From assembly GCF_000003815.2 (NCBI RefSeq), contig NC_049990.1, positions 16,388,003 through 16,452,002 of the forward strand: a stretch of 64,000 bases of DNA, read 5' to 3'. The notes under the pieces were generated by a model that did not search any database, had not been told where the DNA came from, and saw only the letters and a program-made list of their open reading frames with translations. Source of the stretch: Branchiostoma floridae. Lineage: Eukaryota > Chordata > Leptocardii > Amphioxiformes > Branchiostomatidae. This document shows, one piece after another, positions 23,181 to 48,806 of this stretch. Position numbers and translations under genes: made by a program. How positions within the stretch are numbered: the first letter of the stretch is position 1; every line of letters starts with the position of its first letter.

Positions 23181-23210
23181 GTTTTCCTTTTTTTTCAATC
23201 ACCTGAAAGC

Positions 23211-26955: not shown

Positions 26956-29900
26956 ATGCCCGATATGTTGAGGGTCTGTGAGAGACTCCGTGAGGCGGAC
27001 GCGAAGGGCAAGAGGTACGGACTAGCCCGTGCGGAGACAGGCTACCTCCGTGCCCTGGTGGACGCCATAGCTGACATGGACAGGCTTGCGGAAGTGGAGC
27101 TTCTCAAAAGTCTGGGCGACGTGAACTTGGAAAAGGGAAGACTCGGGAAGGACGTAGTGAAGTTCAACATGGCCTTGTCGCTTTACATAGCTGCTGTGGT
27201 CCGGTGTGACAATCAGGATCAGGGAGAAGGTATAGAACACCGATACGAATACGCGGAGAGGCTTTTACAAGGGGTGTCGTCAAAGGGGTCACAGGGTAAG
27301 GAACAGCAAACAAAAGACAGGAAGACGACTACACCTGCAAAGATGGCAGGAAAGTTTCAAGACCTGGACAAGAGACGGGCTGCCGGTGATAACACAGACT
27401 CTGTTCTGGTTGGATACGCACAGTTGATGGTAGAAGGAATAGTAAACGACAACAGTATGTTAGAAACAGAAGCGATCAAGAGTCTCGGTGACGTGTACCT
27501 GAGGAGAGGAACAGAAACTAGGGACACTAGAAACTTGACCAGAGCTAATGCTCTGTACAACAAGGCACTGGCGCGGTGTCACAACGTACAGGGAACAGTT
27601 GCCCTTGTCCACCGCTTACTGTACACCGCAAAAATCAGGCAAGAAATCGTCACAACTAAAACCAAGGTGAGCGATGCAAGCAGCAATGTTTCCCCACATG
27701 AAAAATCAAGGCTAATCTAATAATAAAGACAAAGTTAAGATCTGTCTACCATATAGTTTCTTAGAGGAAAATGATAGAAATTCGGAGATGCGTTAGTTCA
27801 AGGAACATCACCAGGCATAGATGATGTAAATGTTGAGGTGAATTGCATAAATAAGTGTCAAAACGATCACCAGGGCTGATGGGAAGTTCCACAAAGCGTT
27901 ATCAACTTTATGTAAATCATAATCACCGGTGACGTACCTGTAACGAACACGGCACAGAGTGGTTTTAAAATGTATTCCCACTGTATGTTAATGACATAGT
28001 GTAATTGTGTAATAATATTAGTTTAGGATCGATTGATTGACTCATTGATTGATTCATTCATATCATTGATTCATTCATTCATTCGTTCATTCATTCATTC
28101 ATTCGTTCATTCGTTCATCTATTTCTAATGAATGACCTGTGTCCCATGTACATGACTTTCTGCCATTCCCAACGCACGCAGCGACAACGAGGCCGGAAGG
28201 ACCATTTCTTTCCCTTCTCAGCTGCGCCCTCTAGCGACGTCATCAATGACGGCATGGGCCGACGTTACAAGTAGGTACAGGCTGGTGCTTAGTCATAGTT
28301 GTTGACATATCCTTAATGTTTTTGTGTATATTGTTATTTTACAACGTTTTTTTTAAAGAAGAAGGTTTTGACGCATTACATGTACCGATACGAATGGATG
28401 GGTGCATAGGTGTTTCTCTTAGGTGTGAACCCTTCGCTGAACTCATTTGAATTTCCCATCAGAGAGTCCGTTATATTAGGGCCAGGAGATTATGAATGTT
28501 TTGTTGTTTCAGCTCCTACCACAGATACATCCAGACGGCAGACCGTGACTTGGGAAATGGAGACCTGGACGCAGCAGAGCAGAACCTGGCAGCCGCCCTG
28601 AAACTTGTTCACGGTCTGTCATTCATACATAAAATCACAATATTTCTTGTTTAACCCTATTCAGACGGGGGGGGGGGGGGCTTTTTGAGGCCTGCGCCGA
28701 CTTCGATGTCCTATAACGCCAGAACGGCTTACGCTAGAGCCACCAAATTTGGTGAGTTTTTCTAGAATATTGTTGACAACAATTTTACGAAGTTTGACAA
28801 ATTTTCAATTTTTTCGTGTTGCCATGGCAACCGTTTGTTGACAGGCAGTTTGGCCAAAAATCACTATTTTTTGTTCTAACAGTGTATTTTTCACATTTAT
28901 TCGCTATATTACTGCTATTTTGTTACATAAATAAAATCTTACATTATTTAGCATATCTTTCATAATTATATATGCATAAATTATGCTAATTTGATGACGT
29001 CATCAGCCCAAAAACCAAGATGGCGGACCGTCTAGCCAGATCAACAATAACAAGCTAAGTTTCCCTTAAAATTTGTAACTACCTGGTATTTTTTCATCAA
29101 AAACCATCTAAATGAATGAATTTTGTCTATTTCCATTGCCCTTTGTGATTACTTGTTGCAAGAAAGGTATTTTTGAAAATTCAAGGTGGTGGATATGGCG
29201 GAGCCCAACTCGTATCTTGGATGTGCATGACGTCATTTTATGACGTCATTTTGACGTCATTGATGTTGCTATTGGCAACACAAGTCTTAATAAACTTTGT
29301 TATTCTGTTATCTGCACTTCTTGTTACATTTTTTTAGCATAACTTGAAGTTTTTCTGAGAATACCCCTTTTTCATGGTACCGGCCAATATAATCAAATTG
29401 ATGACGTCATAATTACGTCATCGTACGTCAACGTAACGTCAAACGTCACATATTTGTCAAATATTATGTTGAAATTATGTCCTGAAAATTTGGTGGCCCT
29501 AGGCACCTCGTGTTTGAGTTATAGGACTTAGAAGTGGAGGGCCTCAAAAGCCCCCCCCCCCCCCCCCGGTCCAGGGATGACCAAAAAAGCCCGGTCTGAA
29601 TAGGATTAATGCAACAATTGCAGCTGAGAACACACTAGAGTTAAAAAAAATAATTTCTATTATGTAAAATTTAGTTTTGTCATATCCTTAAGTGTTGAAA
29701 TGTTTGAAGTTTTATTATTTGTATATGAATATCCGCCACTTAGAACACAAACATCAGCCTTGAACGTACCGAAGGAGAAAAGTATATAGTCTTGTGGATT
29801 GACCAGTCCTGATATCTATTGATCTTCCTACCTACAGATCGCTATAAACCTGACAAAACTAGAGAAGCCGACTGTCTGTGTAGGTTAGGTGACGTCTACG

Positions 29901-32900
29901 TCGAGCGAGGCAAGCGGACAGGAGAAGGTAGGTCATTCACACAGGCAGCAGCTCTGTATAACGCCTCCATGGCACGGACAGATGGAGACAAACAAAACAT
30001 GATAACAAAGCTGCAAGAAACAGAACAGCAGTTTCTTCGGAACACCTGTCACACAGACTGTGAGCCGTGTCCGTACAGCAGCGCGATAGAGCACATGAAG
30101 GAACTGGACAACATGCGCAACCGTGTAAAATCTCAGCTAGAAATCATTCATGAGGAACACAACCCTTATCAGTATGATGAAGATGATCCCGTCGTGAGAG
30201 AAGTAGAGATCAAACGAGCGGAAGCAATCAAGGACTTGTTCAAGAGGATCACAGCTGACAGACAAAAGTTCATCCAAGTACTGACAAATGAATGTATTGT
30301 AAATCTCGGACCTCCTCCGTGTAAGCACGCTTTCATCGGGTTGGGCTCACAGGCAACAGAACTGGTCACGCCGTACTCCGACCTGGAGTTCGCCATTCTG
30401 ATTGAAGAAGGGAAGGATGATGATGATACACGGAGGTACTTCCTAAACCTCACACACTACTTACATCTAAAAGTCATCAACCTTCGGGAAACCATCCTCC
30501 CAGCCATGGCCATCCCGTCGCTCAACGACTTCCTCTCGGAAGACCCAGAGAAAGACTGGTTCTTCGACTCCGTCACACCTCGCGGCTTCGCCTTCGACGG
30601 CTTCATGCCATGGGCTTCTAAGACCCCTTTTGGAAGAGACAAAACCAGAACCAAAGATTCCGTTAGTCTCGTCCAGACTCCTGATAAGTTAGCGGAATAT
30701 CAACATCTGCACATCGCCCTGGCGGAAGGCTATCACCTGTCAGACATCCTCAGACGGGTGACCTACTTAGCAGGTGACACACCATCTTTGGTGGACGAGT
30801 ATACGGACAGAGTTAAAAACGTTGATCGGTCACATTTTCTGACACGGCAGTCAGCAATGCTAACACTGAGGGATAATATTCAGCAACTAGACGACTTGGA
30901 ACCAACGGGGCAACTTCTGGATGTCAAGAAAGAAATATACCGTTTTCCCAGTGTAGTTGTTGACGTGCTGAGTGTTTGTTCCAGCATTACAATTCCCAGT
31001 GTGTGGGGAGTGATAGAGGAATTGCACAAGACACAGCGGATCAGTCAGGAAGATGCCCACCACTTGACTGTACTGATCAGCATCTCGGCGGAGCTGCGGT
31101 TAAGAACGTACATCGCTAACGGAGGACAGAAGGACAGACTGTCTCCTCTCACTGAGATGAAACTTCAACTTGATGACCATGACGTAGACGACACTTTGGT
31201 TAAGTCAGTATTCTACATAACAGACACAAAAATGCTGTTCAGGTACTACTATACTGCCATTCCGTTAAAAACATGCATTGTTGATACAGTTGCTAAGGAA
31301 AGTCAAATGAAAAAGATATTTCAAAACGCAATCTTTGACAACTCATCTCTAACAAGGGCCCGAATTTCACAAGAGCTATTCCACTTAGATACATCCTTAC
31401 GTCAGTGTGAAGCAGCTCTGAAAGACGCGGGCAGTGATGAGAACAAACAAGTAGAAATACTTTGGCAATTGGGACAGGTATTGCATAAGCGTGGCGACTT
31501 TGAGAAAGCCATGGGATACTATAGGCAAGCACTGGAAGTTGGAAATACTGGACATGGAGAAAATTTATTGCATAGAAACATCGCCTCTTTGCTTGAAAAT
31601 ATTGGGACATGTTGGAGTAAACTTGGTGACCAAAATGAAGCCATAATTCATCTCGAACAGTCACTCAAGATGAGTAAAGCCATCTATGGCGAAACAACAG
31701 CACATCCCGATATTGCTTTATCACTTAACAACATTGGAAACTGTCTGAGCGACCTTGGCGATAAGAGGAAAGCTCTCGGGTATTACGAACAGTCACTGAA
31801 GATGATGAAAGCTATCTTTGGGGAAACAACAGCACATCCCGACATTGCTTCGTCACTTAACAACATTGGAAACCGTTGGAGCGACCTTGGCGATAAAAGG
31901 AAAGCTCTCAGGTATCACGAACAGTCACTGAAGATGAAGAAAGCTATCTATGGCGAAACAACAGCACATCCCGACATTGCTTTATCACTTAACAACATTG
32001 GGTCTTGTTGGAGCGACCTTGGCGATAGGAGGAAAGCTATCAGGCATTACGAACAGTCACTTAAGATGATGAAATCTATCTATGGCGAAACAACAGAACA
32101 TCCTGATATTGCTTCATCACTTAACAACATTGGAAACCGTTGGAGCGACCTTGGCGATAAGAGAAAAGCTCTCAGGTATTACGAACAGTCACTGGAGATG
32201 ATGAAAGCTATCTATGGCGAAACAACAGAACATCCCGATATTGCTTCATCACTTAACAACATTGGAAACCGTTGGAGCGACCTTGGCGATAAGAGAAAAG
32301 CTCTCAGTTATTACGAACAGTCACTGAAGATGAGGAAAGCTATCTATGGCGAAACAACAGAACATCCCGATATTGCTTCATCACTTAACAACATTGGGTT
32401 GTGTTGGAGCGACCTTGGCGATAAGAGGAAAGCTATCATCTATCACGAACAGTCACTGAAGATGAGGAAAGCTATCTATGGCAAATTAACAGAACATCCC
32501 GACATTGCTTCATCACTTAACAACATTGGAAACTGTTGGAGCGACCTTGGCGATAAGAGAAAAGCTCTCAGGTATTACGAACAGTCACTGAAGATGAGGA
32601 AAGCTATCTATGGCAAAACAACAGAACATCCCGACATTGCTTCATCACTTAACAACATTGGAAACCGTTGGAGCGACCTTGGCGATAAGAGAAAAGCTCT
32701 CAGGTATTACGAACAGTCACTGAAGATGAGGAAAGCTATCTATGGCAAAACAACAGAACATCCCGACATTGCTTCATCACTTAACAACATTGGAAACCGT
32801 TGGAGCGACCTTGGCGATAAGAGGAAAGCTCTCAGCTATTATGAACAGTCACTGAAGATGAGGAAAGCTATCTATGGCGAAACGACAGAACATCCCGATA

Positions 32901-33340
32901 TTGCTTCATCACTTAACAACATTGGAGCGTGTTGGGGCGACCTTGGCGATAAGAGGAAAGCTCTCAGGTATTACGAACAGTCACTGGAGATGATGAAAGC
33001 TATCTATGGGGAAACAACAGAACATCCCGATATTACTTCATCACTTAACAACATTGGATTGTGCTGGAGTGACCTTGGCGATCAGACAAAAGCTATCAGA
33101 TATCACGAACACTCACTTAAAATGAAGAAAGCTATCTATGGCAAAACGACAGAACATCCCGACATTGCTTTGTCACTTCACAACATCGGAGTATGTTGGA
33201 ATGAAATTGGTAATCAGAGTAGAGCTCTTAGTTACTTCGAACAGTCAGTAAAAATCATGAAAGTTATTTATGGGCCGGAACATCCCACCGTTGCAAACAT
33301 ACAGCACAGCATTCGAATATGTAGGAATGCCGTCCGTTAA
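26956..33340 (+). CDS. TPR-nucleotidyltransferase-like protein, copy A (four exons, intact)
   Basis: Exons are 26956-27666, 28182-28270, 28513-28613 (or from 28525) and 29838-33340, totalling 1467 aa. The N-terminal third holds three divergent TPR-like units marked by LGDVNLEKG, LGDVYLRRG and LGDVYVERG, each ending ALYxxAxxR-like. A nucleotidyltransferase-like motif follows: GS (470-471), spaced eleven residues from D482-L-E484 in YSDLEF. This is the hGS..DhE signature of the polymerase-beta superfamily, as in GlnD/DUF294-type domains. A conserved region (DWFFDSVTPRGFAFDGFMPW) follows. Residues about 835-1440 are roughly 14 TPRs of 42 aa, kinesin-light-chain/nephrocystin-3-like. No signal peptide or membrane segment, so cytosolic. 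The start ATG has no upstream check, and additional 5' exons are possible. Enzyme activity is inferred, not shown. Confidence 0.85.
28022..28125 (+). repeat. ATTC-type microsatellite in intron 1 of copy A
   Basis: A run of ATTGATTG/ATTCATTC words with GTTC interruptions. An equivalent tract occurs in intron 1 of copy B (40695-40805), so it predates the duplication. Confidence 0.85.
28655..29605. mobile_element. TTAA-flanked TIR element (piggyBac/Kolobok-like, non-autonomous)
   Basis: CCCTATTCAGAC at 28655 and GTCTGAATAGG near 29605 lie between TTAA at 28651-28654 and 29606-29609. Inner inverted arms carry a G run (from 28667) and a C run (29551-29568), each next to GAGGCC/GGCCTC. Intron 3 of copy B lacks it and shows a single TTAA at the matching place, so it inserted after the gene duplication. 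The interior has no transposase ORF but five TGACGTCA sites. Confidence 0.9.
31660..33270 (+). repeat. 126-bp coding TPR array, copy A
   Basis: About 14 units of 42 codons, of which roughly eleven (31690-33080) are near-identical at DNA level. The consensus blocks are HPDIASSLNNIG, WSDLGDKRKAL and YEQSLKM. Differences cluster after NNIG, before YEQSL and after QSLKM. Most units read TTEHPD. Confidence 0.92.
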
Positions 33341-33677
33341 GTGTAAAGCCGTTAGTTATTGCAAACATCTATCAATATATACTATGGAGACACCATGACA
33401 CAAAGCCAATTCGTCTTGTATAGGTATATGGAATAATTATGAAGGAAGAAAGTCTTTTAAGGGTTTTGATTGAGCTCTTCACAGCAAGTACATGTGTGAG
33501 ATGGAAAGACGGTGCAATTGCGCACGCGCGGACAAAGTGCTATGTAATTTCGGGAATTTTTGCTGCAAACTAGATATAACTTTAACAGTAAGCTTAATAT
33601 TTCGTTCATTTAGAGTGCAAAATGAAATAAAATGCATTATATTTGTAAACTATCCTCATTAATTATGCAAATCATCC
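33341..33677 (+). other. 3' flank of copy A
   Basis: The first 170 bases (GGAGACACCATG, GGAAGAAAGTCTTTTAAGG, GCAAGTACATG) match the 3' flank of copy B at 48031-48220, so the duplicated segment extends past the coding region. The remainder holds the candidate poly(A) signal and an AT-rich repeat containing TTAATTATGCAAAT. Confidence 0.75.
33626..33631 (+). terminator. Candidate poly(A) signal of copy A
   Basis: AATAAA lies about 290 bases after the TAA stop, in sequence that has diverged from copy B. Plausible only by position. Confidence 0.35.
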
Positions 33678-33688
33678 CTCTATTGCAT

Positions 33689-36600
33689 CTTGTTCGTCCG
33701 TCGGCATCGACGATGACCAATGACATCACATCACGTCATGGTTTGTGAGTCCTGCTGTGGCTGATGAGTCCAATGCGAGCTCTAAAGGTTCTGCCACAGA
33801 CAGGACACAGGTGGGTTGCTGAAGTAGTAGTAGGTGATGCGGGAACAGCTCTGGACGCTCGCTTTCTAACAGCATCAGCGATTCTGTTCTGTTCGTGAGA
33901 AGTGGCGCCACTATTGATGTGGCTTCGCCAGGCAGAGCGGTCAAGGGCTGATGCTTCCGAAGACTGGGTGTCTATGTTGAAGCCCTTTAGAGCGGCTTTA
34001 GCGTGTCCTTAAATCGCTTTTTCTGTCCCCCCTGCGTACGCTGGCCTTCTGCAAGCTCACCATAGAGGAGTCTCTTGGGTAGGCGTGTGTCTGGCATTCT
34101 TACCATGTGGCCCGCCCATCTCAGTTGGGCTCTCCTTAGCAAGGTGTGGATGCTCCACATGTTGGCTCGGGAGAGAACTTCTGTGTCAGGTATCTTGTCT
34201 TGCCATGTGATCTTCATCAACTTTTTCAGACAGTTTATGTGGAAGCGATGAAGTTTTCTGGCATGACGTGCATAGACAGTCCATGTCTCGCAGGCGTAAA
34301 GTAGGGTTGGTAGTACAACTGCTTTATACACTTTCAGCTTCGTGGACAGTCTGATGCCTCTCCTCTCCCAGACTGAGGCACGTAGCCGACCGAAGGAGGA
34401 ACTTGCCAGGGCAATTCTTGCATCTACCTCACTGTCTATGTTGGCAGATCTGGACAGCGTGCTACCAACTTGAAGGTACCTGAACTTTTCAACTGCTTTC
34501 AGAGTTTCTCCATTGACAGTGATTACTGGTTCTAGGTAGGGCTTTTGTGGTGCAGGTTGGTACAGGACCTCCGTCTTCTTTGTGCTTATTGTCAGACCAA
34601 AGTTGTCTGAGGCAGTGGAGAAGCGGTCCATGCTCTGCTGCATCTTCACCTCTGAGGCAGCATTCAGTGCGCTGTCATCCGCAAAAAGGAAGTCCCGCAC
34701 TGACGTCTCCTGGACCTTCGTCTTCGCCTTGAGCCTCTGCAGGTTAAAGAGCCTGCCATCAGTCCGGAAGCGTATGTCGTCATCGTCAGCGTAGGCATTT
34801 GACAACATGGCTGTAAACATCATGCTGAAGAGCGTGGGCGCGAGAACGCAGCCCTGCTTGAGTCAATTTGTCACTGCAAAAGCGTCGGATGAGTCACCAG
34901 CATCTAGCACTCTGGCCTGCATTCCGTCATGGAATTGACGCACCATGCTGATGAATTTGCTAGGGCAGCCATACTTTCCCATAATCTTCCACAATCCCTC
35001 TCGATTCACATTGTCGAAAGCTTTTGTCAGATCGACAAATGTTGTGTAAAGATCCCTGTTCTGCTCTTGACACTTCTCTTGAAGCTGCCTCGCAGCAAAT
35101 ATCATGTCAGTTGTTCCTCGTCCTTTACGGAAACCACACTGACTCTCAGGCAGGTGTGCATCCATGTGCTGGATGAGTCGGTCCAGGAGAACTCTAGCAA
35201 GAATTTTCCCTGCTATGACGAGTAAGGAATTTCCTCTGTGGTTATCACAGGACTGTCTGTTACCTTTCCTTTTGTAAAGGTGTACAATTGACGCATCTTT
35301 AAATTCCTGCGGGATTTCATTCTTCTGCCACTGGGACTGAAATAGCTCTGTAAGTTTCTCCACCAAGACTGGTCCCCCTGCCTTGTATACTTCGGCTGGG
35401 ATGGAGTCAGAACCCGGTGCTTTGCCGTTTGAGAGACGCTGAATTGCATGATGGACCTCCAGTTCAGTTGGAGGTTCATCCAGAGAGCTATTGACAGGTA
35501 CTTGAGGCATGTCGTTGATGACATCATCATCAATGGAGGAGGGTTGATTTAAGACCTTTATGAAGTGCTCAGCCCACCTTGCCAGGATTTTATCCTTGTC
35601 GGTCAGTAGGGTGGCACCATCTGCGGCTAGCAGTGGTGAAGTTCCAGAACGGGGAGGCCCGTAGATGGCCTTCAGGGCATCGTAGAAGCACTTTGTGTTG
35701 TTCTGGTCTGCAAACTTCTGTATCTCGTCTGCCTTGCCACTGAGCCACGAGTCCTGCATTTCCCTCAACTTGGCCTGTAATCTGTTCTTGATGGCATTGT
35801 AGACTGCTTTCTTTGCAGCAGACTTGGAGAGCTCTGTATCTTTTACGGAAAGGTCCAGATCCCTGAGCTTGCTGTCAAGGTTGTCACTGAGTGTGCTCCT
35901 CACAGAGTCTTGCTTAAGCATGCTAATGTTCAGTCTCTTGTTGGCTGGTTTGCCTTGTGGGCGGCGCTTGGGTTTCACGTGCATGTTGAGCTTTGACCGG
36001 ATAAGCCTATGATCCGGATCCGTCCAACAATCTGCACCACACATGGACTTTGTCACTCTGACATCCTGAATATCCCTTTTCCTGACAATGACATAATCAA
36101 TGAGATGCCAATGTTTGCTGCGTGGGTGCATCCAGGACGTCTTATTACGGTTTGGCTGGCGAAAGATTGTATTAGTTATGACAAGGTCATGGGTTGCACA
36201 GGTCCTCAGCAGTAGGTGACCATTACTGTTGCTTTTGCCTATACCATGTCTACCAAGGATCCCCTCCCATGTTTGGTAATCTGAGCCAACCCTGGCGTTA
36301 AAATCGCCAAGAATAACTAGCTTGTCTTCCTTCGGTACTTCTGTTATGAGAGCCTCTAAGTCTTCATAGAATTTGTCTTTGGTTTCCTCAGAATTAGTCA
36401 TTGTTGGGGCGTAGGCGCTGATGAAAGTGGCCTGACATTTTCCTGTGACCGGGAACCGAATTGTCATGAGCCTATCATTCACAACTTTGGGTAGGCCTGT
36501 GAGCCTGTTGATCAAGTTTGACTTGATGGCAAAGCCCACCCCAGCTTCACGGCGTTCCTCACTACTGCGCCCGCTCCCAAAGAATGTATAGCCGGCTTTG

Positions 36601-37627
36601 ACTTCAGTCAGTTGCCCTTCATTTGCAAACCTAGTCTCACTAAGGGCTGCAATTTGGATATTGTATCTTTCAAGTTCCCTCGCGACTAGTGCTGTACGTC
36701 TCTCGGGTCGATCTACCCTGGAGCTGTCCATGAGCGTCCGAACATTCCATGTGCCTATGGTGAGGGGTCTCACCAGCGTTTTCTTCCTTGTGTGCTTACC
36801 GCTGTGTTGGGATACCCTCCTGCCACGGCGAGCAGGCCAGGGAAGGTGAAGCAGACTATTTTTAGGGCACCTTTTCTAGCCCCTTCCTCAGGCTATGGAG
36901 GTGAGCAGAGTGATCCTAAAGAGGGCTGCTCAGACACCCAGGGGGCTGCCGAGCTCTACTGCTGCTTCGGTCCAGTAGGGAGCGACCATATGGCCTGGGC
37001 CGCCTGTGTGGGGGTTTGTGACTACAGCTCCCAGTGCATCCTCACCTGCTGCTTCACCACTCTCCCCTCGCCACAGGACTTGAGATATGTAGGTTTAAGT
37101 GCACGTGATGTCTTGACTAGCGCGTGACTTTGATTTAAGTGAGGGAGAGTTGCACTTAGTCGTCAGCCTCACTCTCTCTTCCCGCTTCCCATCCGGTTCC
37201 AGTGGCAGGACACGCGTCGAGACGACTGGGGATGAGATGGGCGCAGTGGATGACCAGGACGCTTTCCATGCCTTGCCCTGCTCTTTAGCGCTCCACAGCA
37301 CTGTGCTGTCCCCGCTTTCCTGCCCGTTGGACCTACATGTAGGTCTCATTCGCACCTTCCACCGAGTCCAGTCTTCGCATGCAGGGATAGGCATTCCCGC
37401 CGTCATTCACCGGAGGGTTTACGACCCAACCGGCTACCCTCTACCTGGTTTAGCCCGCCTGCCAAAGCGGTTGCCCGGGGTGTGGCCGCTGCGCATGCTA
37501 CAGCTTCTAGGAGCCACAGGTGAGAGCTGGGTATCAGATGGGAGCCAAAGCAGGATGAGCTACCCGAACGGGCATGGCAGCCCCCCCTGCAGAGGTACTG
37601 ACCCTACCTGACACCCCATACACCCCT
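33689..37627 (-). mobile_element. Full-length-looking non-LTR retrotransposon (APE-RT LINE)
   Basis: A 3.9-kb insertion bounded by an 11-bp direct repeat CTCTATTGCAT (33678-33688 and 37628-37638). The 5' end is at the right. About 850 bp of leader (36774-37627) lies before the coding region, and a short 3' end follows the last stop. Removing it restores a continuous AT-rich repeat with TATGCAAAT and TTGCATAATT. It sits between the two TPR gene copies. Confidence 0.88.
33736..36773 (-). pseudogene. LINE endonuclease-reverse transcriptase ORF, two lesions
   Basis: One frame runs from about 36773 to 33987, interrupted only by TGA at 34865-34863 where related proteins would have VTNG-type Gly before KQGCVLAP. 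The N-terminal apurinic endonuclease domain shows GTWNVRTL, ALSETR, GDFNAR and DPDHRLI. The reverse transcriptase shows NGKAPGSD, the catalytic FVDLTKAFD, and FADD as the second catalytic block. Near 33995 a 1-base loss shifts frame. The shifted frame continues to a C2H2 finger (CPVCGRTFRARIGLISHSRTH) and a stop at 33738-33736. No ATG is evident at the 5' end: the first listed codon is GTG and the frame is open further upstream. Total about 1010 codons. It resembles proteins often mislabelled craniofacial-development-protein-2-like; clade not assigned. Confidence 0.88.
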
Positions 37628-37638
37628 CTCTATTGCAT

Positions 37639-38169
37639 AATTGGCATTTAATCATGTAAGGCATCTCTGAAGCTATCTACATTCCAAATATCATGAAGAT
37701 CCGTTAACCCATTCACGAGTTATTCCCCTATAAACGAATAATGCAACTACATACATGCCTGTAGAAAAATTCCTGACATGCCTGCGAGATTTTGGGAATT
37801 CTTGCCAAACAGTAGCAAACTATACTATTAGGCTCGCCCATAAGGCGTCATCAAGAACTAATCCTTAAATTGTAAATTGTTCTGTCAAATGTCATCAAGC
37901 GCAAAGCGCATTGTTGTGAGCGATGGTAAGGCTATTGAAGAATTGTAAATAACTGGCCGCACACTGGATGTTTGAGGAGCTACATACTTTAATGTCTTGC
38001 GTCCAGGATTCTTAGCACCAGAATGAGGTCACAGGACTAGTCTACTTCTAAAATATGGGGGTTGGGGTAGGAGTGATCACATGGTTCACAGTGGGTTCAT
38101 AACACGCAATTCCAAGTAACTCTACCTCTAGTCAGTCCTAAACACACAAACATACACACACACACACAC

Positions 38170-38207
<38 letters not shown>

Positions 38208-39392
38208 ACACACACACCATCGACCCCCTTACATTTGTGCTGTAGGCTCTGGCCATATGGCGATGATTCCAAAATGTCATGGAGGTAAGGAAAACCCCAG
38301 ATGGAGAAAATGTAAATGATTCAATACGTCACCACTTCAAAACTAGTAACTACCAAGATGTTATGAAATCACCAAGAAATAATTTTCAATGGTTTAAAGC
38401 CTTGTTTTATTTGATGCCCCCCATATAACTGACCCAATAGGAAATGATTATGTTTTTGTTTAGATATAGATTTGAAGCAGAATTCCAAATATCACGCACG
38501 ATTTCTGTTAAATGATTTTATCCCCTTTAACACCGAATTGTACATGAAAATCGCTAGCAGTGAATCATGGATTAGATATGGCTCAATAATGAAAAAAAGT
38601 AGAACTTTGTTAAAAACTATATGCTGTATGAATCTGGTTGTCATATTTACTAAACTGATATTTTGAGGAACCCCAACAGGACATTGGGTGTCTTACTTAC
38701 AGTTAGTTAATTTCATCTGCTAGTGGTCACTGTTGTGGATTCAAAAATACAGTCTTTAACCAATTATAGCAAAGGTGTAAATTACCTCCTGTTGGTCCTG
38801 CTGCTATTCTATTGGTGGGGATTTTGTCCACTATTTGGGCAAACTAAGAGAAATGCCTATCTGGTCTGACCACACCCCCAAACAATGGATATTTCTTAAG
38901 ATCGGGCTGGGGTCTGGTATCCAGGCTAAACGGTGATGGGAAAGTAGCCTGCCCGCCCATGGCTGGTTTATTAGCGCACGGCGGGAGATTTTTAGGGGGT
39001 TGAATTTAAGACCGGGGAGAGAAGCCAAACAGAAGCGGACTGCCGGATACCGCGGGTGTACCTCTATCCCTTTTCACGGGTATGTCACGGCGTTGTTCCC
39101 TTCTTGAGTTATCCCTTTTAGAAGTTTAAAAAACTCCCCTGCTATCCCAAAAGTTAGCGCTAGGGGGGGGGGGCAGATTAATGTCACTTTTTCCTGAGCA
39201 TAAGGGCTATCTAACACCCAAAAATCGCGAACATAGCTTGTTCCGAACACGAGATAGCAAAACCGGAAGTTATGCTGTAGTACCAAGAGAAGTCGCAAGG
39301 GGGGGCAACATTTAACCATTTCCAGCTTTCATCTCCCCTACCAACACACCTAGTATAACACCAATCTACCCAAGCGTTCTTGAGTTAACTTG

Positions 39393-39461
<69 letters not shown>

Positions 39462-39690
39462 CGCAAGTGGAAATATAACCTCCATGACATTCCATGGTAG
39501 CAAATACACTTTCAATCATATTAAACGACATTGAAATGCAATTTTCTTTTAGCTTGTCATTCATACAATACAGCTAAAAGCTTGTGAAGGTGTAGAAGTG
39601 TGCCAATGTTTATTCCATACATCCGTTTCTTAGCTCAATTTCACCATGATGAGGGTCTGTGAGAAACGTATCACGTTTTAGCGTCCTAAT
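37639..39690. other. Intergenic repeats upstream of copy B
   Basis: Contains one arm of a dispersed repeat (37739-37856) whose inverted copy lies at 41010-41125, AC microsatellites at 38149-38217 and 39395-39460, and a dispersed-family copy at 39087-39390 similar to 24760-25090. The region 39640-39690 matches 25126-25180. No gene is supported. Confidence 0.65.
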
Positions 39691-41267
39691 TTTCCAAAGT
39701 ACGGACTAGCCCGTGCGGAGACAGGCTACCTCCGTGCCCTGGTGGACGCTATAGCTGACATGGACAGGCTGGCGGAAGTGGAGCTGCTCAAAAGCCTGGG
39801 CGACGTGAACTTGGAAAAGGGAAGACTCGGGAAGGACGTAGGGACGTTCAACATGGCCTTGGAGATTTACATAGCTGCTGTGGTCCGGTGTCACAATAGG
39901 GATCAGGGAGAAGGTATAGAACACCGATACGAATACGCGGAGAGGCTTTTACAAGAGGTGTCGTCAAAGGGGTCACAGGATAAGGAACAACAAACAGAAG
40001 ACAGGAAGACGACTACACCTGCAAAGGTGGCGGAGAAGTTTCAAAACCTGGACAAGAGACGGGCTGCCGGTGGTAACACAGACTCTGTGCTGGTTGGATA
40101 CGCACAGTTAATGGTTGAAGGAATAGTAAACGACAACAGTATGTTAGAAACAGAAGCGATCAAGAGTCTCGGTGACGTGTACATTTGGAGAGGAACAGAA
40201 ACTAGGGACACTAGAAACTTGACCAGAGCTTCTGCTCTGTACAACAAGGCACTGGCGCGGTGTCACAACGCACAGGGAACAGTTGCCCTTGTCCACCGCT
40301 TACTGTACACCGCAAATATCAGGCAAGAAATCGTCACAACTATAACCAAGGTGAGCGATGCAAGTAGCAATGTTTCACCACATGAAAAATCAAGGCGAGC
40401 TATCTAAGAATAAAGACAAAGTTTGCGTCTGTCTACCATCTAGTTTCTTAGAGGGAAATGATAGAAATTCTGAGATGCGTTAGTTCGAGGTGAACATCAC
40501 CAGGCATATATGATGTAAATGTTGAGGTGAATTACATAAATAAACGGTCACTGATGGTAAGTTCAACAAAGCGCTAACAACTTTATATAAATCACCGGCG
40601 ACGTACCTGTGACAAACACAGCACAGACTGGTTTCCAACTTTATTCCCACTGCATTTTAATGACCTTGTGTAATCGTGTAATAATCTTAGTTTAGGATTG
40701 ATTCATTCATTTGTGCATTCATTCATTTAATGATTTATTCATTCATTCATTCATTTATTTATTTATTTCATTTTAATTCATTAATCAATTAGTTCATTCA
40801 TTCATCTATTTCTAATGAATAACCTGTGTTCCATGTTCATGACGTCCTGCCATTCCCAACTGCTGCAGCGACAAGGCCGGAAGGACCACTTCTTTCCCTT
40901 CTCAGCTGCGCCCTCTGGCGACGTCATCAACGATGGCATGGGCCGACGTTACAAGTAGGTACAAGGAAGGCTGGTGCTTACTCATTGTTTTTGACATTTT
41001 CTTAATGTTTTTGGCGACGCCTCATGGGCGAGCCTAATAGTATAGTGAGTGACTGTTTGCAAAGAATTCCAAAAACTGTACAGGAATGTCAGGAATGCAA
41101 AAGTCCGCGCGTGCGTAGTTGCATCATGCCGGACTGAACCATTACCTCCACGGGTAAGCTTTTCAGTCACAGGGCACATACCGGTATAGGCATATACGTG
41201 TGCACAGCAGTGTTAGTTTTCTGAATTCAAAATTGAGGAAAGCCTAGGACTTCAGACGTACCGGAGA

Positions 41268-41394
41268 TAAATAAATAATAAATAAATAATAAACAAATAA
41301 TAAATAAATAATAAATAAATAAATAGTAAATAAATAATAAATAATAAATAATAAATAATAAATAATAAATAATAAATAATAAATAATACAAAAC
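41268..41394 (+). repeat. AAT/AAAT microsatellite, intron 2 of copy B
   Basis: Mixed AATAAAT/AATAAT units. On the + (sense) strand it contains many AATAAA hexamers. Confidence 0.95.
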
Positions 41395-42099
41395 AAATAG
41401 AGTCCATTCCAAGACACCATGCGGATGTTTGTTACCATTGTTTAGAATTGATTTTAAAGTTTTGTAATTATATGTCTAGGACATTTGATACTTCAGAAAT
41501 ATTTTTAACACTGTTTCAACTTTATAAATATTTCCCTGGTCCTGTAAAACTTTGGAAATATTCATGGTGTGGAATTGGATACTTCTAATGGTTTCTAAAT
41601 AATGATAACAGCATTCTACCATTATTTACAATTTTCTACCATTTTCTACCATTTTTGTAAATTGTTCGGTGGGCTGGGAAGATAGCAATTCACATATCCT
41701 TGCAAAGTATGGTTGGGTGCCATGCATCAATGGCCCACCACAAAGGACCCACCAGTGCCCAGCAGTGAAATCTAAAAATATACAGATGCAACAATAGGGC
41801 TTACTTTTATGGGGGCAATAAAATAATTTTACCATTTGGCCAGGTTTACAATTTTTTGTAAATATTTGTAAATGTGAAATAATCACAGAGAGGTTTCACA
41901 ATTATTCTAAATGAATTTTGTACAGTTACTTTCAAAATGTTTCTAAAATATTTAAAGAAATTCTCAGTATAAGTATTTTCTTAGTCAATTTTTTGAAAAT
42001 AATTTAATCATTGTGGCTCAGATATTCTTTTATTCAAAATAATTCAGACTAATTATAAATATCGCCTAAAAACCCTCATGGTGTCTTAGAATGGACTCT

Positions 42100-42496
42100 A
42101 ACAAATAATAAATAATAAATAATAAATAATAAATAATAAATAATATATAATAAATAATAAATAATAAATAATAAATAATGATTAATAAATAATAAATAAT
42201 AAATAATAAATAATAAATAATGAACAAATAATAAGCAAATAATAAACAAATAATAAATAATAAATAAATAATAAATAAACAATAAATAAACAATAAATAA
42301 ACAATTAATAAACAATTAATAAATAATAAATAATAAATAAATAAATAATAAATGTATAATTAATAAACAATAAATAAATATATTAATGAGTAATAAATGA
42401 GTAATAAATAAGTAACAAATAGATAATAAATAAATAATAAATAAATAATACACAAATAATAAATAAGTAACAAATAAATAATAGATAAATAAATGC
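42100..42496 (+). repeat. Second AAT/AAAT microsatellite, intron 2 of copy B
   Basis: About 400 bp of AATAAATAAT with scattered AACAAAT and AATGAGT variants. Like the first tract, it follows an AATGGACTC/AGAGTCCATTCC-type junction: GAATGGACTCTAACAAATAA at 42090 and CAAATAGAGTCCATTCCAAG at 41394 are inverted relative to each other. Confidence 0.92.
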
Positions 42497-42779
42497 TCTC
42501 TGAACATTAATCGTCAGGCGAATGAAATACGACTATGAAAATCCATTAATAACAACAATCTTTTTTACTAATAAACACTAAAACCGTCGCCATGGCAATA
42601 ATTTTAATTGCCACACTTTTTGTGTTTACTGTTGATTTACAACGTTTTTAAGAGGAATGGTTTTGACATAGCAATGTACCGATACCAATGGATGGATGCA
42701 TAAAAGTTTCTATTAGGTTTAAATGCTGAACTCATTTCAATTTGCCATCATAGCGTCCGTTAGGGCCAGGAGATAATAA

Positions 42780-43800
42780 GTTATCTCCATGAAATGCCAT
42801 GAAGGTTATATTTTCACTAGCGTTTGTGTGTCTGTGTGTCTGTCAACAAGATAACTCAAGAACGGCTGGGTGGATCGGTTTCATACTTCATGTGTTGGTA
42901 GGGTGTGACGAAAGCTGGAAATGGTTAGATTTTGGATCCCCTAGCGGCTTTCATTGGTACTGCAGTGCAACTTCCGGTTTTGCTATTTTTCGTGTTCTGA
43001 ACAATCTATGGTCACGATTTTGGGTTGTTTGGTAGCTCTTGTGCTCAGGAAGAAGGGCCATAAGTTTGGTCCCCCTAGCGACTAGGTTTGGGATAGCAGG
43101 GGCATTTTTGTCAAAAACTTCTGAAGCAAATAACTGAAGAAGGCAACAACGGATTTTCATGATTTTTTGGAATGTAGGTACCTTAGATAATGTTGTACAA
43201 AATGAAATACTAATCATGCAAATATTTGCATAGTAATTAAGAATATTCTAATATAGCAGTTTTATCAATGTATCTCTTGTCCCGGACATGATATGGTCTT
43301 GCTATTTGTAGGGTTGATAGTTATAAGCGTCATGACATAGTGGTCCAAGTTTCAGTCCCCTAACATTTGATTTTGCAACTGCAGGGGCATTTTTGTCAAG
43401 ACATTCAAAGGAGGATAATTGCAGAAAGGATTGATGAATTGCCATTATTTTTGACACGCGGGTAGCTTAGGCAAAGATGTTCATAATGATATGCATGTTA
43501 TGCAAATGAGGACTTAATTTGCAAAATTCATGAGGAAACTGCATAATTCTATAATTTTAATAACTGAACTTCAATAAATGTAACATGTAAATTATGATAG
43601 ATGGCACAAAAATAGATACCAAATATGCAAATGAGGAACTAATTTGAATAACATATGCAAAATTGCAATTCCGCCTAATGATAAATATGAGGGGAATTTC
43701 ATACTTTTGACATGTGTACGTTAGTCAATAATGAACAGGCCATGCATAAATTATATAGATTTGTAAGTCAAATGTATAAAATTTTCAAAAGCTCTTAATA
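42780..43800 (+). repeat. Dispersed repeat in intron 2 of copy B
   Basis: Matches the inverse of the 24440-25130 segment (CTAGCGGCTTTCATTGGTACTGCAG, TAACTCAAGAACGGCTGG words) and carries TATGCAAATGAGG blocks as in 25550-26400. It is absent from intron 2 of copy A, which is only about 240 bp. Confidence 0.7.
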
Positions 43801-46059
43801 TTACATTGTGGAATGAGGTCGCTGAACTCTAGTTTTTTTGTTGGTTCAGCTCCTACCACAGGTACATTCAGACGGCAGACCGTGACTTGGGAAACGGAGA
43901 CCTGGACGCAGCAGAGCAGAACCTAGCAGCCGCCCTGAAACTTGTTCACGGTCTGTTATTCAAACTTAAAATCATAACACGTCTTGTTTAATGTTACAAT
44001 TGCAGCTGAGAACACACTAGAGTTAAAATGATAATTTCTATCATGTACAATTTACCTACCTACCTAGTCCCTGTACAATTTAGTTTTGTCATATTCTTAA
44101 GTGTTGAAATGATTGAAATGTTATCATTTGTATATGCATATCCACCACTTATTAGAACACATTGTCAAACATCAGCTTTGATCATACCGAAAGAGCAAAG
44201 TATTTAGTGTTGTAGATTGGCAAATCCTGATATCCATTTATCTTCCTACTTACAGATCGCTATAAGCCCGACAAGGCTAGAGAAGCCGACTGTCTGTGTA
44301 GGTTAGGTGACGTCTACGTCGAGCGTGGCAAGCGGACAGGAGAAGGTAGGAAATTCACACAGGCAGCAGCTCTGTATAACACCTCCATGGCACGGACAGA
44401 TGGAGACAAACAAAACATGATAACAAGGTCAAGGCTGCAAGAAACAGAAAGGCAGTTTCTTAGGAACACCTGTAACCTAGACTGTGAACCGTGTCCGTAC
44501 AGCAGCGCGTTAGAGGACATAAAGGAACTGGAGAACATGCGCAACCGTGTAAAATCTCAGCTAGAAATCATTCATGAGGAACACAACCCTTATCAGTATG
44601 ATGAAGATGATCCCGTCGTGAGAGAAGTAGAGATCAAACGAGCGGAAGCAATCAAGGACTTGTTCAAGAGGATCACAGCTGACAGACAAGAGTTCATCCA
44701 AGTACTGACAGATGAATGTATTGTAAAACTTGGACCTCCTCCGTGTAAGTACGCTTTCATCGGGTTGGGTTCACAGGCCACAGAACTGGTCACGCCGTAC
44801 TCCGACCTGGAGTTCGCCATTCTGATTGAGGAAGGGAAGGATGATGATGATACACGGAGGTACTTCCTAAACCTCACACACTACCTACATCTAAAAGTCA
44901 TCAACCTTGGGGAAACCATCCTCCCAGCCATGGCCATCCCGTCACTCAACGACTTCTACTCAGAAGACCCAGAGAAAGACTGGTTCTTCGACTCCGTCAC
45001 ACCTCGCGGCTTCGCCTTTGATGGCTTCATGCCATGGGCTTCTAAGATTCCTTTTGGAAGAGACAAAACGTGGAACAAGGATTCCGTTAGTCTGATCCAG
45101 ACTCCTGCTAAGTTAGCGGAATATCAACATCTGCACATCGCCCTGGCGGAAGGCTATCACCTGTCAGACATCCTCAGACGGGTCATCTACTTAACAGGAG
45201 ATGAATCTTTGGTGAACGAGTATACGGACAGAGTTAAAAACGTAAATCGGTCACCTTTTCTGACACGGCTGTCAGCAATGCTAACACTGAGGGATAATAT
45301 TCAGCAACTAAAAAATTTCGAACCAACGGGGCAACTTCTGGATGTCAAGAAAGAAATATACCGTTTTCCCAGCGTAGCCGTTGACGTGCTGAGTGTTTGT
45401 TCCGGCATTACGATCCCCAGTGTGTGGGGAGTGATAGAGGAATTGTATAAGAAACAGCGGATCAGTCAGGAAGATGCCCACCACTTGACTGTACTGATCA
45501 GCATCTCAGCGGAGCTGCGCTTAAGAACGTACATCGCCAACGGAGGACAGAAGGACAGACTGTCTCCTCTCACTGAGATGAAACTTCAACTGGATGACCA
45601 TGACGTAGACGACACTTTGGTTAAGTCAGTTTTCTACATAACAGACACAAAAATGCTGTTCAGGTACTACTATACTGCCATTCCGTTAAAAACATGCTTT
45701 GTTGATACAGTTGCTAAGAAAAGTCAAACGACAAAGACATTTCATAACGCCATCTTTGACAACTCATGTCTAACAAGGGCCCGAATTTCACAACAGCTAT
45801 TCCATTTACATGCATCCTTACGTCTGTGTGAAGCGGCACTGAAAGACGCGGGCAGTGATGAGAACAAACAATTCGAAATACTTCGGCAATTGGGAGGGGT
45901 TTTGGAACAGCGTGGCGAGTTTGAGAAAGCGATGGGATACTATAGGCAAGCACTGAAAGTCGGAAATACTGTATATGGAGAAAGTTCAGTGCATCGAAAC
46001 ATCGCCTCATTGCTTGGAAGTATTGGTGCATGTTGGAGTAAACTTGGCGACCAAAATGA

Positions 46060-47960
46060 AGCCCTCATTCATTTCGAACAGTCACTGAAGATGAAGAAAG
46101 CTATTTATGGCGAAACTGCAGTACATACCGATATTGCTTCATCACTTAACAACATTGGGTTGTGTTGGAGTGACCTTGGCGATCAGAGGAAAGCTCTAAG
46201 GTATCACGAACAGTCACTGAAGAAGATGAAAGCTGTTTATGGTGAAACGGCAGTACATCCCGATATTGCATCATCACTTAACAACATTGGGTCGTGTTGG
46301 AGCGACCTTGGCGACAAGAGGAAAGCTATCAGTTATCACGAAAAGTCACTGAAGATGAAGAAAGCTATCTATGGTGAAACAACAGCACATCCCGACATTG
46401 CTTCATCACTTAACAACATTGGGTCGTGTTGGAGCGACCTTGGCGATCAGAGGAAAGCTCTCAGGTATTACGAACAGTCACTGATTATGAGGAAAGCTAT
46501 CTATGGCGAAACAACAGCACATCCCGATATTGCTTCATCACTTAACAACATTGGAAACCGTTGGAGCGACCTTGGCGATAAGAGGAAAGCTCTCAGGTAT
46601 TACGAACAGTCACTGAAGATGATGGAAGCTATCTATGGCGAAACAACAGCACATCCCGATATTGCTTCATCACTTAACAACATTGGAAACCGTTGGAGCG
46701 ACCTTGGCGATAAGAGGAAAGCTCTCAGGTATTACGAACAGTCACTGAAGATGATGGAAGCTATCTATGGAGAAACAACAGCACATCCCGATATTGCTTC
46801 ATCACTTAACAACATTGGAAACAGTTGGAGCGACCTTGGCGATAAGAGGAAAGCTCTCAGGTATTACGAACAGTCACTAAAGATGATGAAAGCTATCTAT
46901 GTCGAAACAACAGAACATCCCAAAATTGCATTATCACTTAACAACATTGGGTCGTGTTGGAGTGACCTTGGCGATAAGAGGAAAGCTCTCATGTATCACG
47001 AACAGTCACTGAAGATGATGAAAGCTATCTATGGGGAAACAACAGCACATCCCGATATTGCTTCCTCACTTAACAACATTGGAAACCGTTGGAGCGACCT
47101 TGGCGATAAGAGGAAAGCTCTCAGGTATTACGAACAGTCACTGAAGATGAGGAAAGCTATCTATGTCGAAACAACAGCACATCCCGATATTGCTTCCTCA
47201 CTTAACAACATTGGAAACCGTTGGAGGGACCTTGGCGATAAGAGGAAAGCTCTCAGGTATTACGAACAGTCACTGACGATGAGGAAAGCTATCTATGGCG
47301 AAACTACAGCACATCCCGATATTACTGCATCACTTAACAACATTGGGTTGTGTTGGAGTGACCTTGGCGATAAGAGGAAAGCTCTCATGTATCACGAACA
47401 GTCACTGAAGATGATGGAAGCTATCTATGGCGAAACAACAGCACATCCCGACATTGCTTCATCACTTAACAACATTGGGTCGTGTTGGAGCGACCTTGGC
47501 GATAACAGAAAAGCTCTCAGGTATTACGAACAGTCACTGAAGATGAGGAAAGCTATCTATGGCGAAACAACAGAACATCCCGATATTGCTGCATCACTAA
47601 CAACATTGGGTCGTGTTGGAGCGACCTTGGCGATAACAGGAAAGCTCTCAAGTATTACGAAAAATGACTGAAGATGATGAAAGCTATCTATGGCGAAACA
47701 ACAGAACATCCGAAAATTGATTCATCACTTAACAACATTGGGTTGAGTTGGAGTGACCTTGGCGATAAGAGGAAAGCTCTCAGGTATTACGAACAGTCAC
47801 TGGAGATGAGGAAATCTATCTATGGCAAAACAACAAAACATCCCGACATTGCTCTATCACTTAACAACATTGGAACATGTTGGAATGAAATTGGTAATCA
47901 AAGTAGAGCTCTTAGTTACTTGGAACAGTCAGTAAAGATGATGAAAGCTATCTATGGGCC
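46060..47960 (+). repeat. 126-bp coding TPR array, copy B
   Basis: About 16 units counting the two interrupted ones, versus about 14 in copy A. Most units read TTAHPD, whereas copy A units mostly read TTEHPD. The last unit (WNEIGNQSRALSY) is diverged and shared with copy A, marking the fixed end of the array. Confidence 0.9.
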
Positions 47961-48030
47961 GGCACATCCCAACGTTGCAAAAATGCAGCGCAACATTCGA
48001 ATATGTAGGAATGCCGTCCGTAAAGTGTAA

Positions 48031-48480: not shown

Positions 48481-48806
48481 AGGGCCTTCACACTGAAATC
48501 GAATCAGCAGGAATCAAGCAGAACCAGCCGGAATGAAGTATTTGCAAAATTCGTGCCACATTCGGTGCCATTTCCGAGTGGCTATTCCAAATAAGCCTTA
48601 AATCCCCTTCACACGAGAAGGAATGAGCCCAAATGCCGTCAGAATGAAAATCCTTTTCTATTCCTGTGAATTCGTGGTCTATTCTAGACATTCTCACTGC
48701 ATTCGAGATATTCTTTCGGCCACATTCTGGCAGGATTCGAGATGGCTTGCCGTTTCGGTTCTCCATCGAATGAGATAAGAATGTTTCGAATAATGTTGGA
48801 ATGCCG

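Follow-up and report, generated by a model that had tools for sequence, protein, structure and literature searches.

A large amphioxus gene family joining a DrrA/GlnE-type nucleotidyltransferase fold to tetratricopeptide repeats

Introduction

A DUF294 nucleotidyltransferase (NTase) domain followed by C-terminal tetratricopeptide repeats (TPRs) was described in 2014 in NEX2, a family of 50 Neochlamydia proteins that combine an F-box, DUF294 and TPRs (PMC4209131). Other described enzymes resemble parts of this arrangement. The Legionella effector DrrA (SidM) AMPylates Rab1 and, to our knowledge, carries no TPR array. The bacterial nucleotidyltransferases GlnE and GlnD/DUF294 also lack such an array, and the targets of GlnE and GlnD are glutamine synthetase or PII. 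The animal AMPylase FICD has the Fic fold, which is unrelated to the NTase fold considered here. It nevertheless offers a functional parallel, as its TPRs steer the enzyme to its target (PMC8065156). A 2021 review recognized two classes of metazoan AMPylase, Fic and SelO (PMC8097203, from which the motif definition of nucleotidyltransferases is also taken), and in a 2015 survey DrrA-like proteins were regarded as confined to gammaproteobacteria, specifically to Legionella pneumophila strains (PMC4454073).

A stretch of 64,000 nucleotides of the genome of the amphioxus Branchiostoma floridae (contig C12, positions 16388003-16452002; hereafter the window) harbours two tandem copies, A and B, of a gene that joins LGDV-type helical units, an NTase and a long TPR array. 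Coordinates are positions in the window and residue numbers are those of the copy A protein. The first-pass annotation, made from the DNA alone, had noted this architecture in both copies, and reading frames, Pfam and Tandem Repeats Finder all bear it out. It had also called the system a candidate undescribed one, which is not supported as worded, given the 2014 description of DUF294 with C-terminal TPRs in NEX2 (PMC4209131): that combination is already known in Neochlamydia. The interpretation favoured here, with a probability of roughly one half, is that these genes encode TPR-guided protein nucleotidylyltransferases (AMPylases or UMPylases), a family that has expanded in amphioxus and that symbiont effectors share.

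Fold and enzyme class

Copy A is an intact four-exon gene (26956-33340, + strand) encoding 1,467 amino acids (aa) with zero internal stops, and its three introns are all GT-AG. The predicted fold of the NTase region is that of a nucleotidyltransferase and not an unrelated one. DrrA and GlnE are the closest structural neighbours of the model: DrrA is the best match for the whole NTase-plus-helical unit, the adenylyltransferase fold being present, although identity over the structural alignment is 14%.

Profile comparisons used a mixed profile, built from copies A and B together with 18 bacterial sequences (20 members), and an amphioxus profile of 22 rows. Against the Protein Data Bank (PDB) the mixed profile finds three DrrA chains first, with a best whole-sequence E of 4.9e-9; the top match combines an NTase stretch (E 0.063) and a C-terminal stretch (E 0.0012). 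GlnE (0.018), HI0073 (0.03), Med15 (0.19), Vipp1 (0.38) and an MNT antitoxin (0.39) follow. At E<=1 the Pfam families DUF294 and SidM_N are each found in 20 of the 20 mixed members and DUF294_C in 14; the amphioxus set has DUF294 in 22 of 22 (best 1.7e-6) and DUF294_C in 15 (best 0.003). Altogether 18 families match at this threshold among the mixed members and 8 among the amphioxus members. Taken singly, copy B exceeds the curated DUF294 (PF03445) cut-off of 21 bits (25.0 bits, E 2e-5) and copy A falls slightly under it (20.4 bits, E 5e-4), while DUF294_C (PF10335) is a weak match in copy B, at 15.0 bits versus a cut-off of 22.5. Fold and profiles thus agree with the polymerase-beta-type nucleotidyltransferase joined to a TPR array that had been proposed at first pass; of the enzyme clans then offered, the GlnD/DUF294 kind stands, with DrrA and GlnE nearest, whereas OAS/cGAS gave no match at E<=1 and MNT lay far under its cut-off.

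The catalytic motif of copy A, GSQATELVTPYSDLEF, reads G470-S471...S481-D482-L483-E484, that is G-S-x10-D-x-E, and corresponds to the Gly-x11-acid-x-acid motif of DrrA. As shuffling the copy A protein 2,000 times also produced a GSx9SDx[DE] string in 9 cases, the motif is by itself weak evidence.

Family size and motif conservation in amphioxus

A six-frame search of the genome to which the window belongs (513 Mb, 431 contigs) with the copy A NTase as query returned at least 116 stretches at E<=1e-5, a lower bound reached with 112 of 319 candidates scored. The count is one of NTase stretches, gene structure having been viewed in part for a third local copy. Identity to the query is 49-92%, A itself aside; four pairs of rows look like halves of single genes, which leaves about 112 places, and an in-frame stop is present in 4 of the 116 rows. 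The stretches lie on 17 of the contigs C1-C19 and on five smaller contigs, with clusters for example at 17.9-18.1 Mb on C7, at 22-25 Mb on C8 and on C15. Amphioxus has a family of about a hundred or more such genes. Automatic annotation labels many invertebrate proteins 'Protein-PII uridylyltransferase N-terminal domain-containing'.

All 22 full NTase regions read (A, B and 20 fetched copies) keep the motif's G, S, D and E, as do both short pieces taken from more divergent copies (59% and 55% identity). The paired acidic residues on which the first-pass annotation had staked its assignment are therefore present in 24 of 24 copies, a sample of the 116 in which the 20 fetched copies all come from the first 36 rows (64-92% identity) and just two copies stand for the divergent half. 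Two further positions are candidates for the third metal carboxylate: E518, which is Glu in 20/20 mixed and 21/22 amphioxus members, and D554, which is Asp in 20/20 and 22/22.

Relatives in intracellular bacteria

In prokaryotic, plasmid, viral and phage searches the nearest relatives are multicopy Neochlamydia TPR proteins. The sole plasmid record matching the copy A NTase is pS13 of Neochlamydia sp. S13, at 11 places, the best match showing 36.9% identity over 91% of the query (E 3e-39). Ten pS13 members are homologous to copy A over the NTase plus DUF294_C (35-41% identity); nine carry the motif GSLAREEMTPYSDLEF and the tenth differs by one change. They have in common with A and B the block INLGETILPAL and, with small changes, the block FFD..TPRGFAFDG. 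The motif itself differs: the symbiont GSLAREE is GSQATEL in amphioxus, an Arg being lost. Neochlamydia P0001 has an F-box (E 8.4e-9), DUF294 and, behind it, a long kinesin-light-chain-type TPR array, with an LGD-type helical unit discernible by eye upstream. Judged by architecture, the ten pS13 proteins can be inferred to be NEX2 members. Copies A and B resemble NEX2 in having DUF294 before C-terminal TPRs and in being multicopy; NEX2 members mostly bear an N-terminal F-box and some an OTU domain, whereas copy A has LGDV units, introns and no F-box match (PMC4209131). On pS13 (L001:4372-8152) two adjacent annotated genes, for a DUF294 protein and for a TPR protein with DUF294_C, correspond to the halves of one member and were apparently split by a frame break.

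A scan of 84,980 species genomes, which requires one of two exact peptide patterns and is thus non-exhaustive, found 15 loci in Parachlamydiaceae and other Chlamydiae, Amoebophilaceae, a Cytophagales metagenome-assembled genome (MAG), Rickettsia/Rickettsiaceae MAGs and two Alphaproteobacteria MAGs. Apart from the Cytophagales MAG and these last two, most lineages carrying relatives are known intracellular symbionts. Profile surveys covered Chlamydiota, Bacteroidota and Alphaproteobacteria. In Chlamydiota 18 of 151 genomes match at E<=1e-3, four with 14 scored matches each. One Parachlamydia-like genome by itself has 31 matches. Matches occur in 40 of 296 Bacteroidota genomes, with full-length ones (E<=1e-127) in the Amoebophilaceae genome only; in the other 39 the matches are short and weak, their best E ranging from 3e-14 to 5e-4, and many fall in frames around 480, 640 or 970 aa long, presumably the sizes of ordinary DUF294 and GlnD proteins. 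Alphaproteobacteria, the class of genome G003, give 14 of 289, one strong and 13 weak (best E 4e-6 to 8e-4). In the Bacteroidota and Alphaproteobacteria samples alike, the single genome whose relatives are full-length is of symbiont type. At E<=1e-10 the order of G003 has 6 of 174 genomes, five of them strong (best E<=1.2e-74), and the order of G002 has 1 of 194.

Several observations concern individual bacterial proteins. One relative in the order of G003 (G863:C17:32003-32662) lies within an open frame of 11,442 codons. Two loci, L009 and L011, encode very long TPR-NTase proteins in MAGs titled 'Rickettsia typhi', a title suspected to be a loose automatic label; a part of L011 read by eye as a C48-type protease was unconfirmed by Pfam and dropped. 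The N-terminal parts of 10 symbiont proteins contain no Pfam domain at E<=0.01 except TPR in L016. A viral origin was considered and rejected: no relative was found in viral contigs (pattern-seeded scans) or in phages (tblastn with the copy A NTase).

A first tree of 22 rows did not place amphioxus. A larger tree, of 31 rows, unites the 13 amphioxus sequences in one clade (support 100/100), which falls on the same side of a branch (support 87/88) as Neochlamydia and a single Parachlamydiaceae genome. As long branches meet there, this grouping is suggestive only. The trees comprise amphioxus and bacterial rows, with no other eukaryotes, and are silent on the direction and age of transfer. Bacterial contamination does not account for the amphioxus genes, because they have introns and retrotransposon neighbours and stand on a 22.97-Mb contig.

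A more constrained catalytic half and faster-changing repeats

The motif is identical in A and B, as had been noted from the DNA, and so are its surroundings. The synonymous divergence (dS) between the copies is 0.157. The ratio of nonsynonymous to synonymous change (dN/dS) is low for the DUF294_C-like domain (residues 660-737; 0.14) and the NTase core (459-582; 0.17) and higher for the TPR array (0.46) and for the N-terminus, middle and linkers (0.57-0.81); exons 2 and 3 together give 0.04, from 8 changes only. The catalytic half is therefore more fixed, and the recognition half, with its relaxed constraint, faster-changing. The earlier statement that the repeats turn over stands insofar as unit number differs and the array exceeds the core in dN/dS. 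Copy-specific homogenization of the repeats, in contrast, is not visible, since unit identity is equal throughout: 0.859 within A, 0.869 within B and 0.864 between them.

In the 44-aa TPR unit, all 25 of the units compared have Asn at position 6. Variation is greatest at position 9, then at 40, 22, 31, 24 and 10. Peptide-binding TPR superhelices with an asparagine ladder are known, OGT being an example, and by analogy the invariant Asn 6 and the variable position 9 suggest an OGT-like generic grip with a variable specificity position.

Proposed function and alternatives

The protein is probably intracellular. Its middle is a complete NTase of the DrrA/GlnE/DUF294 type, made up of an N-terminal helical bundle, a catalytic beta-sheet bearing G-x11-D-x-E and a C-terminal helical domain, and is followed by a long kinesin-light-chain-type TPR superhelix. 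The enzyme is probably active. Most likely it would take AMP or UMP from a nucleoside triphosphate and attach this nucleoside monophosphate to a hydroxyl of a partner protein, and the partner would be chosen by the TPR superhelix and probably also by the extra LGDV units. A conserved motif combined with changing recognition repeats over about a hundred or more genes is what one would expect of a set of writers that differ in their targets. Multicopy proteins of intracellular bacteria use the same core, a secretion signal being shown for some. Only this sharing and the repertoire-like expansion hint that the family may act on, or in contact with, intracellular bacteria; an immune role, and the ligand control of the enzyme proposed at first pass, are hypothetical.

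A number of observations weigh against this interpretation. A shared fold does not establish the reaction. Med15 and Vipp1, which are unrelated, appear in the PDB list of the mixed profile, and therefore only the DrrA rows clearly exceed noise. The 22-row amphioxus profile matches no PDB chain at E<=10 and the input alignment of the structure model includes bacterial rows, so that the DrrA link is partly transitive, through bacterial relatives and the model. SidM_N is weak in amphioxus (20/22 at E<=1, best 0.0034), and in A alone (PF20879; E 0.046) it scores 13.4 bits versus a cut-off of 27, short of membership on sequence. E518 is Lys in the third local copy, 1 of the 22. The position aligned with DrrA Asp249, by the analyst's own offset from DrrA D110/D112, is not conserved in amphioxus: of the 22 rows, 12 have Ser, 9 have Gly and a single one has Asp. 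The bacterial loci L007, L008, L009, L011, L012 and L013 have Asp there. Copy B is damaged, and the programs applied in the paper on NEX2 predicted secretion for only two of its members (PMC4209131).

The altered Asp249 equivalent and the lost Arg of the symbiont motif would also fit a pseudoenzyme scaffold, in which the NTase fold is kept as a structural module while the TPRs do the work. This is unlikely, as all 24 copies read, whose identity to A ranges from 55 to 100%, retain G, S, D and E, and both the NTase core and the DUF294_C-like domain have a low dN/dS.

An NTase directed at RNA or tRNA, of the MNT or tailing type, or one that works in the manner of a toxin-antitoxin system, could likewise be borne by TPRs. 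HI0073, which we take to be an MNT-like protein, and the MNT antitoxin are indeed weak PDB matches, and DUF294_C belongs to the same Pfam clan as HEPN-related domains (PMC3710099). The NCBIfam profile of MntA, the antitoxin of the type VII MntA/HepT system, however, reaches 12.7-13 bits versus a cut-off of 60, which makes such an activity improbable.

Large animal families of cGAS-like receptors exist, and OAS and cGAS have the polymerase-beta superfamily and paired acidic residues in common with the amphioxus proteins. A second-messenger synthase of this kind, in which a ligand on the TPR array triggers synthesis of an oligonucleotide signal, is nonetheless very improbable: structural and profile matches point to DrrA/GlnE and to a helical domain of the DUF294_C type, and no OAS1, cGAS or Mab-21 profile matches at E<=1 among the 22 amphioxus or the 20 mixed members, an absence that is no proof. 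That the A/B pair is an assembly artefact or unmerged haplotypes can be practically dismissed, for although amphioxus is highly heterozygous and copy B is damaged, the copies lie in tandem on one contig at the dS given above, differ in intron lengths and are separated by a retrotransposon frame, and relatives at 49-92% identity occur on many other contigs.

Organization of the window

Copy B is a tandem duplicate of copy A with the same plan, damaged at its start and in its TPR array (Table 1). Replaced sequence containing a stop (MRVCEKRITF*) stands at its apparent start, immediately before position 39682, and a 1-base deletion in the TPR array ends the main frame at 47671. Intron 2 measures 2,895 bp in copy B (40955-43849, with AT-rich repeats) versus 242 bp in copy A, and intron 3 1,224 bp in copy A (28614-29837) versus 305 bp in copy B; these differences probably reflect insertions postdating the duplication. 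Downstream of copy B, at a distance of about 75 kb, there is a third copy, with exon 1 from C12:16503303 and an NTase 92% identical. The three LGDV-type, TPR-like units of copy A are at residues 53, 177 and 317, and Tandem Repeats Finder reports the TPR arrays as 12.3 and 14.3 units of 132 bp with 90% match. The exon 1 frame of copy A matches no Pfam family at E<=1, F-box included; that of copy B matches SmAKAP (0.13) and TPR_16 (0.23) only, and no F-box. Neither the exon 1 frames nor the top 25 of the matching families (33 in all for A, 29 for B) include a NACHT or NB-ARC ATPase domain. PADLOC matched HerA in copy A only (E 7e-4, 16.2 bits) and Cas5 in copy B only (E 0.024); both matches were judged to be chance.

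Table 1. Positions of the two NTase-TPR gene copies and their parts
Feature	Position	Strand	Remarks
Copy A exon 1	26956..27666	+	Start and two LGDV-type helical (TPR-like) units, residues 1-237
Copy A exon 2	28182..28270	+	GT-AG, phase-matched, kept in copy B
Copy A exon 3	28513..28613	+	GT-AG, phase-matched, kept in copy B
Copy A exon 4	29838..33340	+	Third LGDV unit, nucleotidyltransferase, DUF294_C-like domain, TPR array, stop; single open frame; Pfam DUF294 and TPR matches
Copy A NTase core	30329..30700	+	Residues ~465-588
Copy A NTase residues	G470 at 30344; D482 at 30380; E484 at 30386; E518 at 30488; D554 at 30596
Copy A DUF294_C-like helical (substrate-binding) domain	30914..31147	+	Residues ~660-737; low dN/dS, family matches, DrrA structural match
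Copy A TPR array	31415..33273	+	~14 units, mostly 44 aa
Copy B exon 1	39682..40350	+	In-frame stop directly upstream; copy A's start replaced
Copy B exon 2	40869..40954	+
Copy B exon 3	43850..43950	+
Copy B exon 4	44256..47671	+	Third LGDV unit, intact NTase and DUF294_C-like domain, TPR array shortened by 1-base deletion
Out-of-frame rest of copy B TPR array	47668..48030	+

Frames of a non-LTR (long terminal repeat) retrotransposon reverse transcriptase, recognized by eye, lie between A and B (33987-36875, - strand) and right after B (48794-51250, + strand), and these two flanking frames may have helped the duplication. The remaining gene-like frames and exons were likewise identified by eye. 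Exons resembling an ECT2-kind RhoGEF extend over 326-8775 (+), where a long open frame is overlapped by a tandem duplication of 123 bp (7657-7901, 94% match), and exons resembling a choline/ecdysteroid-kinase-like phosphotransferase occupy 21176-23198 (-). At 55909-57768 (-) a C-type-lectin-like frame adjoins a coiled-coil frame, the latter being a 51-bp tandem repeat of about 17 copies (56788-57623).

Significance

Open full-text papers, in the portions searched and with preprints and protein databases outside the search, yielded no description of the amphioxus family or of the DrrA link, and the excerpts of a Cardinium transcriptome paper and of a polymorphic-toxin survey hold nothing on it. 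A bolder proposition is offered tentatively, as possible and short of likely: that amphioxus has at least a hundred TPR-guided protein nucleotidylyltransferases of the DrrA/GlnE fold, that the module has been shared by horizontal transfer with the effector arsenals of intracellular bacteria associated with protists and animals, and that both sides, host and microbe, consequently place the same kind of mark on proteins and may compete over it.

Both the 2015 statement on the distribution of DrrA-like proteins and the 2021 statement on metazoan AMPylases would need revision in the light of an animal family this large that pairs a DrrA-type catalytic fold and a conserved motif with a recognition array that changes faster. 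If the proposed function is true, these genes would add another class of animal enzymes for AMPylation or UMPylation to Fic and SelO, and would offer a testable case of an enzyme module common to animals and the effectors of intracellular bacteria.

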